Of a DNA stretch of 64,000 bases, positions 32,356 through 61,738 are shown in pieces. Source of the stretch: Rhodothermales bacterium. Its GTDB lineage: Bacteria > Bacteroidota > Rhodothermia > Rhodothermales > Bin80. Position numbers and translations under genes: made by a program. The stretch spans positions 1,189,246-1,253,245 of the forward strand of contig CATQHT010000003.1 of the NCBI GenBank assembly GCA_958296045.1. Reading direction: 5' to 3'. Below the pieces are notes generated by a model. That model made no database searches and had not been told where the DNA came from. It saw only the letters and a program-made list of their open reading frames with translations. How positions within the stretch are numbered: position 1 is the stretch's first letter; each line of letters opens with the position of its first letter.

Positions 32356-33483
32356 TTACTCGACTACCCTGAACGCAACTATTATGGGACCGCTATCCTC
32401 TTCCCTCAAAACTCCGACTGCCTTACCTGCGCGAATTGCTTCCAACGTTAACCCGACCGGCAGGTTAATTACGGCCACATCCTTCCCGTCCGCGCCGATG
32501 ATGATGCACTCGGCGGTGGTTGCACCGCGAGCGGCACTGGCCTGCACCCAAATGCGGTCCTTTTCATCTACCACGAAGTTTTCGAATACCGGGCGGGTCC
32601 GAGGTATGCCAGACTTACGTAGTGCTTCACGCTTCTCTCGACTCCACCCCTCCATGGCAGTATCCAATTCTCGTTTGGTTACGGGTAGCGGCTCGTACTG
32701 ACGACTATAAGTTGTGTCCCTATCGCCATTTAGGAATCGAGCCTCGATACTAAAGGCATCGGACCTCCCGGCGTACAATTTCCCTGAGGGACTCACAGTG
32801 ACCACGTTCTTTTGGCCGAAGGGCTTAGGCGACACACTTATGCGACCCCCTGCAAGCACAACGACTCGTTCGGCGGCAGGAAGTGTCACCAGCGGATCAC
32901 CGCCAGCTTGACCATCCTTGTCTACCAGCCTGGCATTCACGTATCGCGTCTCGTCATTGCTGCACTCGTCACAAAACCCGTACGGTGTAACGTATAGAAA
33001 GACGATGCCCTCTGTGCCCACACCGACCAGCGCTATCGGATGCCGTTCATCGTACGCTGCTACACGAATAATATCTCTGAATTCGAACTTCCCGCTTGCA
33101 CGTTGCTCAAACACCGACAGTCGGTCCAGATCCCAGTCCCAGACATAGACTCTATCATCTGGACCCACGACTACGTTGCGAATCGTAGCAAATTCTCCGG
33201 GCCCTTCCCCTCGACCACCTAGAGTTGAAATCAGCTTACCGGTTTCAGAAAACACCTGTACGACAGGGCTCTGAGGGTCTGTCACATAGATCCGCCCTGC
33301 TGCGTCGAGAGCAATGTCGGCGATGTGACCAAAAAACACATCACCATCGTCTTCGCCGAGGCGGAAGACTTCCTCCAGCGCAATGGAAACAGGCTGAGCC
33401 GTAGCATCAATGTGTAGTGCTGCAAACAAGCCCGGCACAATGAGGGCGCTGACGCCCACTATGTAGCGGGCGAAAGAGCGCAC
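32356..33483 (-). CDS. Secreted 6-bladed beta-propeller protein
   Basis: A protein of 375 residues from GTG 33483. There, MRSFARYIVGVSALIVPGLFAALHIDATAQ reads as a proper signal peptide. An ATG at 33600 would add 39 residues in front of it. Propeller blades are seen as ADIALDAAGRIYVTDPQSPVVQVFSETGKLISTLGGRGEGPGEFATIRNVVVGPDDRVYVWD, the NHL-like pattern of the 6-bladed propeller family common in Bacteroidota. Later blades are VVTVSPSGKLYAG and FVVDEKDRIWVQAS. A Cys pair (CDECSND) occurs in a loop. It is predicted periplasmic. Its function is unknown. Confidence 0.78.
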   Translation of the reverse strand: MRSFARYIVGVSALIVPGLFAALHIDATAQPVSIALEEVFRLGEDDGDVFFGHIADIALDAAGRIYVTDPQSPVVQVFSETGKLISTLGGRGEGPGEFATIRNVVVGPDDRVYVWDWDLDRLSVFEQRASGKFEFRDIIRVAAYDERHPIALVGVGTEGIVFLYVTPYGFCDECSNDETRYVNARLVDKDGQAGGDPLVTLPAAERVVVLAGGRISVSPKPFGQKNVVTVSPSGKLYAGRSDAFSIEARFLNGDRDTTYSRQYEPLPVTKRELDTAMEGWSREKREALRKSGIPRTRPVFENFVVDEKDRIWVQASAARGATTAECIIIGADGKDVAVINLPVGLTLEAIRAGKAVGVLREEDSGPIIVAFRVVE

Positions 33484-33780
33484 ATCAACTGCGCGCCAGC
33501 GATTCCAGGTACGCGGGGTCACGCCTAGCGCCTTCGGCACCCCGTCCACACGACATTGTATGTCGTTGTTATCAGTAGAATAGCGATCAATCTGTGGCAT
33601 AGATCATGTTGGTTTGTGCCAGGCTTGCGGTCTGCGTATCCGTCTGCACGGCTGCACTGCGGCACCTTCACTCGCATCCTCTTCGGCGCAACCGCAGTAA
33701 GGCTACCGCCCATCAATATCCCTCCGCACCCTCGTTTAGGACGCTTCCAGAGTTTCGGTTTCATTCCACGTACGAAGAAA

Positions 33781-36700
33781 TCATTCTTCGCGCACGCGCA
33801 TCGCTTTCTTCGCTTCAGCGACGACTTCACTCACGGTTAAGCCCGTGAACCCGGCGGCCCGCAAACCTCTAATAAAATCCGGGTCGACTTTATACTTGGC
33901 CAGAGCGAGCAAGCCATCTATGGTCACATCCAAGAGGCCGAGGTCCCGCATTGCTCGGATGTATTCCGGCGTAACATCATGCTTGACCAGTTTAATAAGG
34001 TTACTCGCGGTCAAGTCAACGAAGCCTATGGCCTGGATATCTCGGATGTATTCCAAATCAATGTCAGCCAAGACGAGAAGCTCGTGCGCACTCATATCCC
34101 CCAAACCAGCCGCCTGAAAGGCGCGGATCCACTCTGGATCAACGTCATTGTGAGCCAAAACGAGAAGCTGGTGGGCGCTCATATCCCCCAAACCAGCCGC
34201 CTGAAAGGCGCGAAACTGCTCTGGATCAACGTCATTCTGGGCCAAAACGAGAAGCTCGTGGGCACTCATATCCCCCAAACCAGCCGCCTGAAAGGCGCGA
34301 ACCTGCTCTGGGTCAACGCCATTCTGGGCCAAAACGAGAAGCTCGTGGGCGCTCATATCCCCCAAACCAGCCACCTGAAAGGCGCGAACCTGCTCTGGGT
34401 CAACGTCATTCTGAGCCAAAACGAGAAGCTCGTGGGCGCTCATATCCCCCAAACCAGCCGCCTGAAAGGCGCGAACCTGCTCTGGATCAACGCCATTCTG
34501 AGCCAAAACGAGAAGCTCGTGGGCGCTCATATCCCCCAAACCAGCCGCCTGAAAGGCGCGAACCTGCTCTGGATCAACGCCATTCTGGGCCAAAACGAGA
34601 AGCTCGTGGGCGCTCATATCCCCCACACCAGCCACCTGAAAGGCGCGAACCTGCTCTGGATCAACGCCATTCTGGGCCAAAACAAGAAGCTCGTGGGCAC
34701 TCATATCCCCCAAACCAGCCGCCTGAAAGGCGCGAATCTGCTCTGGATCAACGTCATTCTGGGCCAAAACGAGAAGCTCGTGGGCGCTCATATCCCCCAA
34801 ACCAGCCGCCTGAAAGGCGCGAATCTGCTCTGGATCAACGTCATTCTGGGCCAAAACGAGAAGCTCGTGGGCACTCATATCCCCCAAACCAGCCGCCTGA
34901 AAGGCTCGGATCCACTCTGGATCAACGTCATTGTGAGCCAAAACGAGAAGCTCATGGGCACTCATATCCCCCAAACCAGCCGCCTGAAAGGCGCGAACCT
35001 GCTCCGGATCAACGCCATTCTGGGCCAAAACAAGAAGCTCGTGGGCACTCATATCCCCCAAACCAGCCGCCTGAAAGGCGCGAACCTGCTCCGGATCAAC
35101 GCCATTCTGGGCCAAAACAAGAAGCTCGTGGGCACTCATATCCCCCAAACCAGCCGCCTGAAAGGCGCGAACCTGCTCCGGATCAACGCCATTCTGGGCC
35201 AAAACAAGAAACTCGTGGGCACTCATATCCCCCAAACCAGCCGCCTGAAAGGCGCGAACCTGCTCCGGATCAACGCCATTCTGGGCCAAAACAAGAAACT
35301 CGTGGGCGCTCATATCTCCCAAACCAGCCGCCTGAAAGGCACGAACCTGCTCTGGATCAACGTCATTCTGGGCCAAAACAAGAAGCTCGTGGGCACTCAT
35401 ATCCCCCAAACCAGCCGCCTGAAAGGCGCGAACCTGCTCTGGATCAACGTCATTCTGGGCCAAAACAAGAAACTCGTGGGCGCTCATATCTCCCAAACCA
35501 GCCGCCTGAAAGGCACGAACCTGCGCTGGATCAACGTCATTCTGGGCCAACACGAGAAACTCGTGGGCGCTCATGTCCCCTAAACCAGCCGCCTCAAAGG
35601 CGCGAACCTGCGCTGGATCAACGTCATTCTGGGCCAACACGAGAAACTCGTGGGCGCTCATGTCCCCTAAACCAGCCGCCTGAAAGGCGCGAACCTGCGC
35701 TGGATCAACGTCATTCTGGGCCAACACGAGAAACTCGTGGGCGCTCATGTCCCCTAAACCAGCCGCCTGAAAGGCGCGAACCTGCGCTGGATCAACGTCA
35801 TTCTGGGCCAAAACAAGAAGCTCGTGGGCGCTCATATCTCCCAAACCAGCCGCCTGAAAGGCGCGAACCTGCGCTGGATCAACGTCATTCTGGGCCAACA
35901 CGAGAAACTCGTGGGCGCTCATGTCCCCTAAACCAGCCGCCTGAAAGGCGCGAACCTGCGCTGGATCAACGTCATTCTGGGCCAAAACAAGAAGCTCCTG
36001 GGCGCTCATATCTCCCAAACCAGCCGCCTGAAAGGCACGAACCTGCTCTGGATCAACGTCATTCTGGGCCAAAACAAGAAGCTCCTGGGCGCTCATATCT
36101 CCCAAACCAGCCGCCTGAAAGGCGCGAACCTGCTCTGGATCAACGTCATTCTGGGCCAACACGAGAAACTCGTGGGCGCTCATGTCCCCTAAACCAGCCG
36201 CCTGAAAGGCGCGAACCTGCTCTGGATCAACGTCATTCTGGGCCAAAACAAGAAGCTCGTGGGCGCTCATATCTCCCAAACCAGCCGCCTGAAAGGCACG
36301 AACCTGCTCTGGATCAACGTCATTGTGAGCCAACACGAGAAACTCGTGGGCGCTCATGTCCCCTAAACCAGCCGCCTGAAAGGCGCGAACCTGCTCTGGA
36401 TCAACGTCATTCTGGGCCAAAACAAGAAGCTCGTGAGCGCTTAGATCCCCCAAACCAGCCGCCTGCATTGTGCGAGCATACTCTGGGCCGACCCCATTCT
36501 GAACCAGAAGTACAAGGTCATCTACGGTCAAGCCTACAAGGCCGAAGCCCTGCATGGTCCGGATATATTCTGGGTTGATATTATGCTCGGCCAAAGTGAT
36601 GAACTCACTCACATCCAAATTGGTAAAGCCCAGGCTTTCGATCGCATAGATAAAAGTGCTATCAATGCCGTACCTGTTGCGCAGCATCCTGCGTTGCGCA

Positions 36701-38103
36701 GCGGTAAGTGTATCCGTAGATGGAGCATCCCAATTCGTGTCGACGCTCAAGCCGTAGTCAAAGCTGTCGTCGATAGCTACACGTAAATTGGAGAGTCGAT
36801 CCGCTCCAATGGTAAAGCCGAAATCGGGATCACTGATGAGGGCCTCGGAGACAATGTAACCCACATCGTTGGACATCGGCATTGCGTCGGCCGCAACTTC
36901 GTTACCCCCTACGGTCGGCAATATCTCATGTTGGCCTTGGGCGGGATACAGCGCGGACAGCGGCAACACCACGCATGCCGCTATCACGACAGCCATGGTC
37001 ATTCCAGCCGAGCTCAGGCTCCGACGGTACAACGACGAATTAAGAATGGCCGCTAGGCGGCTTTCCAACTGGGCGTGCCGGGCCATGGCCACCGCCGCCA
37101 CCGCCGGTCTTTTCGCCAGATACAACGAACGAGCAGTCTCCAGCAAGATCTCGGCATACGTAGATGGCTGCATGCCGGCAGACAGTACCAAGTCGTCGGA
37201 AGCCCGCTCCCGCTCAATGTGCGATTGACGAGCAGCTACCCACACCAAGGGATTAAACCAGTTGAAGGCGCAGGCAACTTGCGTTAAGAATTGCATCAGG
37301 CAGTCGCGGCGTTTGACGTGCGCCAGCTCATGGAGTAACACCATCTGGCGGTGCTGGTCGTCCCACGTCTTTGCCACCTCTGGCAGGATGATGACAGATC
37401 GCCATAGGCCGACGCTCAACGGAACAGCCGTCCACACGCTCCAACGAAGCCCCACCGTCCGCCTCAGGCCAAGCCGGTTGGCCATATCTCCAGCCAACGT
37501 GTGCCAATCGTCGTCGCGCACAATCGTTCCTCGGCTAACGAGAAGGTGCACGCCAGCGTGTGCAATGGCCATCCGAACCAGCACGAACAGCAGCCCCGCC
37601 AGCCACACCAGAAACACCCAAGTCGACCAATGGAAATCGAGACTTGTAAAAAGGCCCGATGCGGCCGCGTCCAAAGGAGGAGGGGCTTCAGCCCGCTCCA
37701 CATGCGCCGATGCCGCAGCCGCGGGAGTGGACCCTTCGCTGACTGTCGACAGCGTCGGTGACGCCTTAGCCGGCACAGCCATCGGAGCATCCAGAAGCGG
37801 AAGTGGGGCCGATCTCACTTGCGGAACCGCATGCCGAGCTTCCTGAAACGGAACGGCCGTTTGGGGAACAAGGCCGGTCTGCCAATGCGGCAGCAGTGCC
37901 GATAGCACCGGCAGCGCGAGCAGACTCAAAAGCCCCGCGCACCACACCATATGGCGGACTGCTGCCGAACTGCGCCGCAAGGCACATACCATGAGCGCGG
38001 CCACAGTCAATAACAGCATACCCTTGACAAACAGCACCAGCATCGACGCGAACCAAGCACTCATGTTGGCAGGAAACTGGGAGAACTCAAGTAACATGTC
38101 CAT
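33781..38103 (-). CDS. BlaR1-like M56 metallopeptidase with giant 29-residue repeat array
   Basis: A 1440-residue membrane sensor peptidase. Residues 1-345 form the M56 domain, with membrane helices (VLFVKGMLLLTVAALMVCAL; LLSLLALPVLSALL; TWVFLVWLAGLLFVLVRMAI). The zinc site is HELAHVKRRDC at about 255, with the downstream ERERASDD. Another helix follows at about 360-380. Residues 548-1357 are 28 repeats of 29 residues, almost identical (LVLAQNDVDPEQVRAFQ, then AAGLGDMSAHEL). Two or three diverged units flank each side. In BlaR1/MecR1 the peptidase cleaves the partner BlaI repressor when the sensor domain is triggered. Here the penicillin-binding sensor is replaced by helical repeats, which probably face the periplasm and bind a protein or ligand. 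It starts 2 bp after the blaI-like gene. Confidence 0.9.
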   Translation of the reverse strand: MDMLLEFSQFPANMSAWFASMLVLFVKGMLLLTVAALMVCALRRSSAAVRHMVWCAGLLSLLALPVLSALLPHWQTGLVPQTAVPFQEARHAVPQVRSAPLPLLDAPMAVPAKASPTLSTVSEGSTPAAAASAHVERAEAPPPLDAAASGLFTSLDFHWSTWVFLVWLAGLLFVLVRMAIAHAGVHLLVSRGTIVRDDDWHTLAGDMANRLGLRRTVGLRWSVWTAVPLSVGLWRSVIILPEVAKTWDDQHRQMVLLHELAHVKRRDCLMQFLTQVACAFNWFNPLVWVAARQSHIERERASDDLVLSAGMQPSTYAEILLETARSLYLAKRPAVAAVAMARHAQLESRLAAILNSSLYRRSLSSAGMTMAVVIAACVVLPLSALYPAQGQHEILPTVGGNEVAADAMPMSNDVGYIVSEALISDPDFGFTIGADRLSNLRVAIDDSFDYGLSVDTNWDAPSTDTLTAAQRRMLRNRYGIDSTFIYAIESLGFTNLDVSEFITLAEHNINPEYIRTMQGFGLVGLTVDDLVLLVQNGVGPEYARTMQAAGLGDLSAHELLVLAQNDVDPEQVRAFQAAGLGDMSAHEFLVLAHNDVDPEQVRAFQAAGLGDMSAHELLVLAQNDVDPEQVRAFQAAGLGDMSAHEFLVLAQNDVDPEQVRAFQAAGLGDMSAQELLVLAQNDVDPEQVRAFQAAGLGDMSAQELLVLAQNDVDPAQVRAFQAAGLGDMSAHEFLVLAQNDVDPAQVRAFQAAGLGDMSAHELLVLAQNDVDPAQVRAFQAAGLGDMSAHEFLVLAQNDVDPAQVRAFQAAGLGDMSAHEFLVLAQNDVDPAQVRAFEAAGLGDMSAHEFLVLAQNDVDPAQVRAFQAAGLGDMSAHEFLVLAQNDVDPEQVRAFQAAGLGDMSAHELLVLAQNDVDPEQVRAFQAAGLGDMSAHEFLVLAQNGVDPEQVRAFQAAGLGDMSAHEFLVLAQNGVDPEQVRAFQAAGLGDMSAHELLVLAQNGVDPEQVRAFQAAGLGDMSAHELLVLAQNGVDPEQVRAFQAAGLGDMSAHELLVLAHNDVDPEWIRAFQAAGLGDMSAHELLVLAQNDVDPEQIRAFQAAGLGDMSAHELLVLAQNDVDPEQIRAFQAAGLGDMSAHELLVLAQNGVDPEQVRAFQVAGVGDMSAHELLVLAQNGVDPEQVRAFQAAGLGDMSAHELLVLAQNGVDPEQVRAFQAAGLGDMSAHELLVLAQNDVDPEQVRAFQVAGLGDMSAHELLVLAQNGVDPEQVRAFQAAGLGDMSAHELLVLAQNDVDPEQFRAFQAAGLGDMSAHQLLVLAHNDVDPEWIRAFQAAGLGDMSAHELLVLADIDLEYIRDIQAIGFVDLTASNLIKLVKHDVTPEYIRAMRDLGLLDVTIDGLLALAKYKVDPDFIRGLRAAGFTGLTVSEVVAEAKKAMRVREE
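34033..36462 (-). repeat. 28 tandem 87-bp repeats inside the M56 gene
   Basis: Exactly 2430 bp: 27 units of 87 bp and one terminal unit of 81 bp. It encodes 28 copies of a 29-residue helical motif with only a handful of variable positions (HEL/HEF, QND/QNG/HND, DPEQ/DPAQ, RAFQ/RAFE). DNA identity between neighbours is very high, including synonymous sites, so the array has been recently expanded or homogenised. Confidence 0.97.
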
Positions 38104-38105
38104 AG

Positions 38106-38498
38106 CTATTGCCCTTGTTTTCTGGCCTGTTCAATCAAGCCGGAGAGATGATCGAAATCGCTTTCGGTAAGATCCGCTCTTTTCAGGTCGAGCAGCGACG
38201 CTACAGCTTGCTTCGCCGAGCCACTGAAGAACATTTGCACCAAATAGTTCATGGCTGAACGACCTGCTTCTGCAGGAGAAAGCGTCGGCACATAGATGTA
38301 GCGCCCGCGCTGCCGGCGGTGGTGGAGATGGCCCTTCTCCTCCAGGATGCGAAGCATAGCCCGCACACCCGAATAACTCGGGGGATCCTCGATGCCCTCC
38401 ATCACTTCGGCGGCCGTGGCCTGATTCTGCCGGTAAATGAACGCCATAATCTGACGCTCGCGGCGCCCCAGGTCCATCGGAGATGTACTCGTTTTCAT
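38106..38498 (-). CDS. BlaI/MecI/CopY family transcriptional repressor
   Basis: A 130-residue winged-helix repressor. Its N-terminus has LGRRERQIMAFIYRQNQATAAEVMEGI, then YSGVRAMLRILEEKGHLHHRRQRGRYIYVP, the classic BlaI DNA-binding domain. The C-terminal helical dimerisation and cleavage part includes MNYLVQMFFSGSAKQAVASLLD. It would bind the palindrome in its own promoter and be cleaved by the M56 peptidase encoded just behind it. No beta-lactamase gene is nearby, so the regulated target is not obvious. Confidence 0.92.
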   Translation of the reverse strand: MKTSTSPMDLGRRERQIMAFIYRQNQATAAEVMEGIEDPPSYSGVRAMLRILEEKGHLHHRRQRGRYIYVPTLSPAEAGRSAMNYLVQMFFSGSAKQAVASLLDLKRADLTESDFDHLSGLIEQARKQGQ

Positions 38499-38539: not shown

Positions 38540-38561
38540 AGATGCTAATATACTAGCATCT
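38540..38561. promoter_or_regulatory. Palindromic operator for the BlaI-type repressor
   Basis: Arms AGATGCTA and TAGCATCT are perfectly inverted around a 6-bp centre. It is located 42 bp before the repressor start and lies over the -10 element, as expected for autorepression. Confidence 0.75.
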
Positions 38562-38575
38562 ACGGTCAATGTCAA
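38547..38575 (-). promoter_or_regulatory. Sigma-70-type promoter of the blaI-M56 operon
   Basis: On the minus strand, TTGACA (38570-38575) is followed by 17 bp and TATATT (38547-38552). This is a near-perfect sigma-70 consensus, which is uncommon in Bacteroidota. The operator palindrome covers the -10 hexamer and part of the spacer. Confidence 0.75.
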
Positions 38576-38885
38576 GCGAGGTTGCACACGCGTCAGAGCT
38601 CCATGCCAGTTTCTTGTGCTCCGTCACGCGTTGATTTGCGGTTAGACAGACTTAACCCGACTTCGTCACGTTACCCAGCCTCACGGCTATAGGCCAGCCT
38701 AACGTGCATCCCGTAGGGCCGGAATCGGACAATACTTGGTCGTTATTGGGCAACTATCGTGAAGCAACAACGAGTTCGGCGACATACGACTGCAAAGCGC
38801 CACATATGTCGCAATTGGCCACCATTCTAGGGGTTGTGGGCAGCAACCATGCCCATGGAGTGTATTTTGAAGTCCGATGAATGTC

Positions 38886-39690
38886 TGGGCGATCACATCG
38901 CACGTCAATAACGGCGAGGTGCGCTGGGGTTACCGCCTCGTGCATTCGAACGGCATCGGCGGCATGATTCGGCAGACCCTCCTGTTAAACTCCGGTGTAG
39001 GTGTCGACGTGCAGCGTTAGAAATGGCCCCACTCGTGGAGCTCATCTCGTATCGCTACCTGCGGCAGTAGGTGATGAACCCAATTGCGGAGCGAATGAAG
39101 GTCATCGAGGCGATCTGTGTGAAGCTGCAAGGGTCGGGGGATCTATCGATGCGAAGTCGAACACTACGGAGTCAGCGTTTGCCGCGGCGGACGTTGATAC
39201 GCTGGATTAGTCGGAGCCCCCGTGTTAAGCAGTAGGCGAACGCGTCAGCCTGAAAGCCCTGCAGTAAATGGGATTCAAGCATATGCTGATGCAGGCCAGT
39301 GTCGGCGAGCGCGATGCACACGTCGCACTCAGCGCCGTGGTCGCGCGGATGCGCCGCCCATCCAGTGATTAGGCCATACATGCCTGGCTGCACGAGCATT
39401 TAGGATTGTAGGAGCCCCTGGGACTTAACCTTTACAATGGCGAATCACTTGCGAAGCTGTACCGAATCCATTATGTGCTCTACGCGCACCGCCGCGCGTT
39501 CATGCGCGGATTGTTTGCCCAAAATCGAACCCTCTGAATCTGCAGGATACCGTGAATCTGTACGGCCTGACCCACACGCACTACACGCGTACCCAGGCTG
39601 GCGAGCACCTGACGTACGTACGTTCTAAGCAACGGCGCTCCGATAGCCCCTTGGTGACGCTTGCGCTGGCACCTAGGCGAGCTGTAAAAC
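38886..39690 (+). pseudogene. Decayed IS1634-family transposase
   Basis: Translation with frame changes gives pieces of an IS1634-type transposase in the right order: GYRLVHSN...IRQTLLLNSG near 38920, then VELISYRYLRQQ, then ALSAVVARMRRPSSD-AIHAWLHEHLGL-EPLG. These are followed by LYRIHYVLYAHRRAFMRGLF near 39470 and NLQDTVNLYGLTHTHY. The last piece is RSKQRRSDSPLVTLALA near 39640, matching the family's GRSKEKRSDCPLVTLAL. At least four stops and two frame changes interrupt it. The catalytic core beyond 39690 is gone, cut by the DUF2461 gene region. It is an old, dead insertion. Confidence 0.6.
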
Positions 39691-56470: not shown

Positions 56471-56478
56471 TGCGCCAC

Positions 56479-56546
56479 CAATTCCGGAGCATGCGCGCCA
56501 TCAATTCCGGAGCATGCGCGCCATCAATTCCGGAGCATGCGCGCCA
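56479..56546 (+). repeat. Three tandem 23-bp repeats at the IS21 left end
   Basis: Units at 56479-56501, 56502-56524 and 56525-56546 read CAATTCCGGAGCATGCGCGC and so on, nearly identical. Multiple internal end repeats are the usual IstA-binding sites in IS21 elements. The first unit overlaps the terminal repeat. Confidence 0.8.
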
Positions 56547-60805: not shown

Positions 60806-61738
60806 TTATGTCTCGGACCCGTTCATCGTGGGAAAGGTCTGAAAGATGTAGTCCGTCATGATCAGCATGTTCATGCTTTCCTTGTGCGTCGAGTATGGTA
60901 TCAATCCATGAAGGGCGGCGTGACGATTCGGGACCGGCATCTGCGCGAGTTTTGCCCGGTTACCTTTTACCGACTCGTACATGTGGTCCACAAAATAGCC
61001 GAAAAGGTCAATGGCGAATGGTTCTCCAGACACGAAATCCGCCAAGGTTCCCGTGCTTGTCAGTTTCTCAATTTCTTTTTTACGTACGCGTCCGAGCCCG
61101 ATCACCCTCTCGATTTCGGGAAACAACACGCAGCAGACGCACCGGTAGTATCCAGCCGCATGGGCCGATAAGGCTTCCCGGTAGGTCTCCTTCGCCTCAT
61201 CGTCTATGAGATAGTCATTGAGCCGCAACTCCAGATCGTCGCGAATCTCACTCCACCGGGTGCGATAGAAGTCGTCGAGACGTTTATCTAGGAGGACAAG
61301 GTCGTCGCCGCATTCTTTGACATAGTGGAAGGGTGTGGTATGATATGGAAGCCATCCCACCGCCTTAAAGGCCTCCCCGGTGAGGGCCCACTCAATGAAC
61401 GCTCGGCCATAACGTACGAGCTCGTCCATCTGTTTCGCCAGACGCTCGGGGAAGGGTTCGAGCCCGTCCATCTGCTCATCCAAACGCTCGGCGAAGAGAT
61501 TGAGCTCGTCCATCTGTTTCTGCAAACCCTCGGCGAAGGGTTTGAGCCCGACCATCTGTTTCGCCAGACGTTCGCGGAAGGGTCCGAGCTCGTCCATCTG
61601 TTTCGCCAAACCCTCGGCGAAGAGATTGAGCCCGTCCATCTCTTTTTCCAAACGCTCGACGAAGAGTTTGAGCGCGTCGGCGAATCGCTGAAATGCCGCA
61701 GACAGCTGGGTAAAAAAGTCGTTCTCAGAGGTCCCCAT
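60806..61738 (-). CDS. Coiled-coil protein with possible C-terminal HEPN domain
   Basis: A 310-residue protein not belonging to any transposon family I recognise. Residues 23-106 are six 14-residue (double-heptad) repeats such as LNLFAEGLAKQMDE, giving a coiled coil. Residues about 115-310 are a mostly helical domain ending NRHAALHGLIPYSTHKESMNMLIMTDYIF. The R-x4-H in NRHAALH, followed by a hydrophobic helix with Asp, is the pattern of HEPN-type domains, many of which are ribonucleases in toxin, Abi and defence systems. No partner antitoxin is adjacent. It is flanked by broken insertion sequences, suggesting accessory origin. Confidence 0.6.
   Translation of the reverse strand: MGTSENDFFTQLSAAFQRFADALKLFVERLEKEMDGLNLFAEGLAKQMDELGPFRERLAKQMVGLKPFAEGLQKQMDELNLFAERLDEQMDGLEPFPERLAKQMDELVRYGRAFIEWALTGEAFKAVGWLPYHTTPFHYVKECGDDLVLLDKRLDDFYRTRWSEIRDDLELRLNDYLIDDEAKETYREALSAHAAGYYRCVCCVLFPEIERVIGLGRVRKKEIEKLTSTGTLADFVSGEPFAIDLFGYFVDHMYESVKGNRAKLAQMPVPNRHAALHGLIPYSTHKESMNMLIMTDYIFQTFPTMNGSET
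61421..61672 (-). repeat. Six tandem 42-bp repeats encoding double-heptad coiled coil
   Basis: Six units of 42 bp within the coiled-coil gene, diverged but in register. Each encodes a 14-residue unit ending in variants of KQMDEL/EQMDGL. Confidence 0.85.

Follow-up and report, generated by a model that had tools for sequence, protein, structure and literature searches.

A BlaI-Linked M56 Peptidase of a Rhodothermales Bacterium with a C-Terminal Domain of 33 Repeats of 29 Residues

Gene Organization of the Locus

The DNA analyzed here (the window, a stretch of 64,000 nucleotides from a Rhodothermales genome, G000, that is assembled in four contigs) encodes on its minus strand a BlaI-type repressor and, immediately after it, an M56 peptidase whose C-terminal part is built of 29-residue repeats. 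The features are as follows.

38570-38575 (-35, TTGACA) and 38547-38552 (-10, TATATT), minus strand: blaI promoter, 17-bp spacer, recognized from the sequence
38540-38561, no strand assigned: candidate operator, a 22-bp palindrome AGATGCTAATATACTAGCATCT over the -10 box, with the core TGCTA-N6-TAGCA at 38543-38558
38106-38498, minus strand: BlaI/MecI-type repressor (Penicillinase_R, Pfam PF03965), first gene of the operon, 130 aa
33781-38103, minus strand: M56 peptidase with a C-terminal, predicted solenoid of 29-residue repeats, 1440 aa, ~155 kDa
37045-37731, minus strand: M56 domain (Pfam match, aa 125-353)
37318-37332, minus strand: HELAH motif of the M56 domain (aa 258-262)
36499-36672, minus strand: two degenerate repeats on the N-terminal flank (aa 478-535)
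34063-36498, minus strand: 28 near-identical units of 87 bp / 29 aa (aa 536-1347)
33802-34062, minus strand: three degenerate repeats on the C-terminal flank (aa 1348-1434)
32356-33600, minus strand: 6-bladed beta-propeller protein, possible last gene of the operon (Pfam DUF5128, E=4e-9)

The blaI gene lies directly upstream of the M56-repeat gene with a gap of two bases, and its product matches PF03965 with E=7e-24 (84.7 bits against a cut-off of 22.6); a phmmer search returned no solved structure for it. No terminator or promoter was recognized in the 180 bp that separate the M56-repeat gene from the propeller gene, and homologs of the propeller also follow the M56 gene in a sister genus, G003 (locus L041), and the second gene copy of another, G002 (L040). 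Upstream of the operon, ~1 kb (38580-39550) is without a convincing ORF and possibly represents the remains of a decayed gene.

The M56 Peptidase Domain

The first 390 residues of the M56-repeat protein comprise four TM segments, predicted at residues 22-40, 53-71, 163-181, and 367-385, and the M56 domain, after which come an acidic linker (low confidence) and the repeats. The M56 domain matched PF05569 with E=5e-31 (108.4 bits against a cut-off of 31). Residues H258, E259, H262, and E299, invariant across 18 aligned proteins, align with H201, E202, H205, and E242 of BlaR1, the HExxH...E active site of a gluzincin, and D303, Y316, and R349 align with D246, Y261, and R294 (BlaR1 active-site residues as described in PMC9834060). 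The M56 part of the predicted model superimposed on Staphylococcus aureus BlaR1 (8exs) with a VIA-align Z of 20.4 over 244 residues and an rmsd of 3.4. Based on these residues and on the modeled fold, the protease should work.

The likeness to BlaR1/MecR1 and BlaI/MecI therefore takes in the blaI-M56 gene order, the four TM segments, the active-site residues, the M56 fold, a C-terminal domain following TM4, and a palindrome at the blaI promoter. The window system differs in that the predicted 33-repeat solenoid replaces the penicillin-binding sensor domain and in that its operon contains no recognized beta-lactamase gene. Pfam gave no match to a penicillin-binding or transpeptidase domain in the M56-repeat protein, and the NCBIfam models for BlaR1/MecR1 cover its N-terminal part only (87 bits against a cut-off of 400), consistent with an earlier note, made from the letters of the window, that had described an M56 peptidase like BlaR1 but carrying helical repeats in place of the penicillin sensor.

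The Candidate Operator and the Presumed BlaI Cleavage Site

The palindrome at the blaI -10 box reads AGATGCTAGTATATTAGCATCT (22 bp). Of 11 relatives, all but L116 have its exact core, TGCTA-N6-TAGCA, upstream of blaI, mostly as two sites, ~62 bp apart in many, versus the single copy of the window. Of the 16 genomes in the window's family, three contain a tighter form of the operator, TGCTANTATNNTAGCA, once each, and it is exactly these three that have the M56-repeat gene, which ties the palindrome to this system. Judged by sequence, the locus has the layout that defines a regulatory unit of the BlaI/BlaR1 kind, with repressor and protease genes side by side and a palindrome, the putative operator, at the promoter. 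Elsewhere in the window genome the loose core was found at five places, compared to seven for a reversed control, and the exact sites include two within long ORFs. As this is chance level, the genome search recognized no operator-regulated target other than the operon itself, which leaves self-regulation.

Classical BlaI operators are of the type TACA-N2-TGTA, unlike the window's TGCTA-N6-TAGCA, and the classical sequence TACANNTGTA is absent from the window. An "FF" motif is invariant in 11 aligned BlaI proteins (that of the window and 10 relatives) and presumably sits where a cut before the near-invariant Phe is expected. The Phe at the cleavage site is almost invariant among BlaI proteins (PMC9834060).

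The Repeat Array and its Predicted Fold

The repeat region (aa 478-1434) consists of 33 repeats of 29 residues, in the order two degenerate, 28 near-identical, and three degenerate, in an open frame of 1449 codons without a stop. TRF placed the array at 34067-36465 with a period of 87, 27.6 copies, 94% match, and 0% indels; our unit boundaries (34063-36498) are obtained by cutting in frame, on the minus strand, at NDVDPEQ. The earlier note had drawn the same array in another phase, at 34033-36462, as 27 units of 87 bp and one of 81 bp (2430 bp in total), which is correct, the 81-bp member being the junction with the C-terminal flank and two residues short. Its report of degenerate relatives on both sides of the array also held. 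Of the 28 units, 24 are distinct at the DNA level and 17 at the protein level, with mean pairwise identities of 91.5 and 90.1%, respectively. A chance origin of the array is excluded. The variants are distributed largely as the note had listed them, by its unit numbering: DPAQ is clustered in units 6-11, the WIRAFQ form occurs in units 18 and 27, and HEF, given as mostly in 7-15, is found in units 2, 4, 7, 9-12, 14, and 15. QNG, assigned to 14-17 and 21-25, was recovered in 14-17, 21-23, and 25, while unit 24 has QND. Antisense to the array runs an open frame of 534 aa (33979-35583, plus strand), a by-product of the 87-bp period and no gene candidate.

The earlier note had proposed predicting the repeat as a solenoid, and AlphaFold2 produced a regular one with two 9-residue helices per unit. 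Over the first ten units the pLDDT was ~90, and for all 33 it lay mostly at 70-90; the pTM of 0.34 leaves the global shape uncertain. With a charge of ~-103 and a pI of 4.2 the domain is strongly acidic, and, assuming a BlaR1-like topology, its position after TM4 would make it periplasmic. No convincing model of the repeat was present in Pfam or NCBIfam. The Pfam matches HOXB-AS3, ACTL7A_N, and TraQ on the array were rejected as spurious and repeat-driven, as no stretch passes alone and they are absent from the relatives scanned. A PDB sequence match (E 1e-9) to 8v2d, part of a designed nanocage, was also set aside, because the repeats of 8v2d have a longer period and none of the matching stretches by itself scores below 0.004; we take this likeness, one of sequence, as convergent helical-repeat composition. 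Foldseek with the array alone gave no match at E <= 0.001, the best (E 0.023) being a designed protein.

Relatives of the M56-Repeat Protein

Among 80 GTDB loci retained from a search with the M56 query, the repeat adjoins an M56 peptidase in eight, namely in Rhodothermales and related MAGs (L057, L058, L059, and L061), in Latescibacterota (L060), and in Acidobacteria (L064, L073, and L116), and M56-repeat proteins were found in further Bacteroidota genomes. The blaI/M56-repeat operon itself is present in other Rhodothermales, Latescibacterota, and Acidobacteria, with blaI upstream and a similar operator in the Rhodothermales loci and in most of the Acidobacteria and Latescibacterota loci read. 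Relatives belonging to several phyla have the unit at the same position, so the repeat domain was not newly grafted in the window lineage, contrary to what the earlier note had supposed.

The search for M56 proteins with the same C-terminal unit that the note had suggested did reveal a difference in copy number between species, with ~4-13, usually degenerate, repeats in relatives versus 33 in the window, the highest count seen. Within the window's own family the counts were 6-8 and at least 12-13. These counts were made with a home-made 29-residue HMM that undercounts diverged units (for L039 it reports six repeats where eight are readable by eye). A second genome of the window's species or genus was not found among the genomes searched. 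Frame lengths were compared in three partly overlapping sets, covering the phylum (247 genomes), the order (114 genomes), and the phylum to which the Acidobacteria locus belongs (149 genomes). Among the matches listed at our E thresholds from these ~500 genomes of two phyla, the window's open frame, at 1449, is the longest that bears repeats; the runner-up among the matches listed, L044, has 1183 aa (and one full unit by the HMM) and the others at most 957.

Most relatives also differ in what follows the M56 gene. Outside the window's family most operons continue with another protein that looks exported and is built with the same 29-residue unit, whereas the window's family has the propeller. 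Exported-looking proteins composed largely of 29-residue repeats directly follow the M56 gene in L043/L061, L042, L045, L049, L051, L060, L064, L073, and L116. In four Bacteroidota loci (L147, L148, L165, and L167) a beta-rich-looking stretch lies between the M56 domain and the repeats of a single protein, and one family within the same class encodes, at L146, L149, and loci like these, proteins of 230-300 aa with one TM-like segment, 4-6 units of the repeat, and no peptidase. We found no paper on M56 proteins with such repeats in the open-access literature, which does not prove that there is none.

Evolution of the Array

Neighboring units are more similar than when the order of the units is shuffled (p<=2e-4 for lags 1, 2, and 1-3), and exact runs of 129-169 bp are common to units one to three apart, indicating that exchange was mostly local, over one to three units. 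This is as expected from the unequal exchange that the earlier note had invoked; the exchange of nine-unit blocks that it had read from the WIRAFQ units was not borne out, as similarity at lag 9 is without significance (p=0.19). Divergence, counted over pairs of units that are not independent, was 0.188 for pS and 0.036 for pN (pN/pS 0.19), and pN being far below pS argues that purifying selection keeps the amino-acid sequence of the unit. On these sequence measures, we consider the array to be shaped by local unequal exchange under purifying selection. The note's combination of an old motif and a recent expansion stands in so far as the motif is old and was expanded and homogenized locally, but a synonymous divergence of ~19% among the units means that the array did not arise in one very recent burst.

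Two sister genera have homogenized different units, four nearly identical FEIDPSYIR units in G002 and an array of 58-residue dimers in G003, and repeat turnover therefore recurs. The G003 array contains a 100-N gap (L041:4705-4804), so its count is a minimum. A second copy of the M56-repeat gene in G002 (L040, G002:C1:1879000-1889000) is apparently decaying, with no intact blaI and with its M56 gene missing the 5' end; it retains 92% DNA identity to the intact copy over ~1.5 kb, with a short set of C-terminal repeats that are different.

Proposed Working of the System and Alternatives

We see the window protein as the extreme form, still changing, of a putative sensor type that is widespread but undescribed. 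Our main reading, to which we give a probability of roughly 70%, is that the locus is a BlaI/BlaR1-type operon whose membrane protease reads the periplasm via a long acidic alpha-solenoid rather than a penicillin-binding domain. We favor a sensor because four TM segments followed by a linker and repeats are the order of BlaR1, because the M56 fold and active site are intact, with BlaI as a neighbor and an operator shared with 10 of 11 relatives, because many relatives encode an exported-looking repeat protein next door, and because the two-helix repeats are regular as predicted, with similarity of neighbors, a low pN/pS, and homogenization in sister genera. Weighing against this reading are the window's one operator copy, compared to two in most relatives, and the operon being the sole recognized target of the operator. 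The BlaI-like repressor would sit on the palindrome over its own promoter until the solenoid gains or loses a partner in the periplasm, which may be an envelope protein or a polymer. The four-TM protease would then be switched on and cut BlaI at the conserved Phe, derepressing the repressor, the sensor, and perhaps the propeller. Unequal exchange between 87-bp units would alter the length of the solenoid, always keeping frame and fold, while purifying selection holds the unit sequence, and length would have grown to 33 units in the window lineage. That copy number affects signaling is conjecture.

It is this last point on which the strongest alternative, to which we give about an even chance, departs from the sensor reading, as it shares the mechanism and differs only on the meaning of length: array length may be near neutral and play no part in tuning, with slippage or unequal exchange letting it drift in a solenoid that tolerates such change. 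The scatter of copy numbers within the family and elsewhere, for which no correlate was seen, fits such drift, as do whole-unit changes that all keep frame and fold and a low pN/pS that demands only that units still fold; conversely, the 33 units, together with the homogenized arrays of three genera in a single family, may reflect selection on length. A contingency locus, in which copy number changes rapidly between strains and tunes the sensor, goes back to the earlier note and appears unlikely. Long near-identical repeats with similar neighbors, large differences in copy number between species, and the short, different unit set in the decayed second copy of G002 are in its favor, but ~19% synonymous-site differences and 24 distinct units of 28 point to turnover too slow for identical units, and a unit that is a multiple of three keeps the frame and thus changes only length, precluding the on/off switching of classical contingency loci.

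An artefact of assembly, either of the whole array or of its copy number, we consider very improbable. Such arrays do break short-read assemblies, as the gap in G003 illustrates; however, the window genome is in only four contigs, the distinct units form ordered variant clusters, the frame is open throughout, and the array of G002, which is a single contig, is short, so inflation by assembly is not a general effect. Least credible of all is that the repeats form a nucleic-acid-binding solenoid like those of TAL effectors or mTERF. TAL effectors, BurrH, and mTERF are the nearest solved solenoids, likewise superhelical stacks with, in our prediction, two short helices per unit, yet the VIA-align Z of 4-9 (rmsd mostly 6-25) is within the tool's range for common arrangements, identity is 5-12%, and neither TALE nor mTERF was matched in Pfam, NCBIfam, or PDB sequence searches. 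The TALE/BAT unit has ~33-35 residues compared to 29 here, and an acidic domain predicted to be periplasmic does not suit such a role.

BlaR1 is known for beta-lactam sensing, and relatives in several phyla have a different, repeat-based ectodomain and a conserved operator of their own, raising the questions of what a BlaI-linked protease senses through an acidic solenoid and whether solenoid length matters. A broader proposal, which we offer tentatively and with the odds against it, is that M56 proteins with 29-residue solenoids form a widespread and uncatalogued class of envelope sensors that are coupled to BlaI, have an operator of their own, and often come with an exported partner built from the same repeats, that their length evolves by in-frame unequal exchange, and that in the extreme 33-unit member length sets reach or threshold. 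The homogenized arrays of the sister genera are a natural length series.

Other Tandem Repeats in the Window

Two further tandem repeats lie in the window, one of 42 bp (6.2 copies, 61418-61678) inside the minus-strand ORF 60806-61738 and one of 23 bp (3.3 copies, 98% identical) at 56472-56546.
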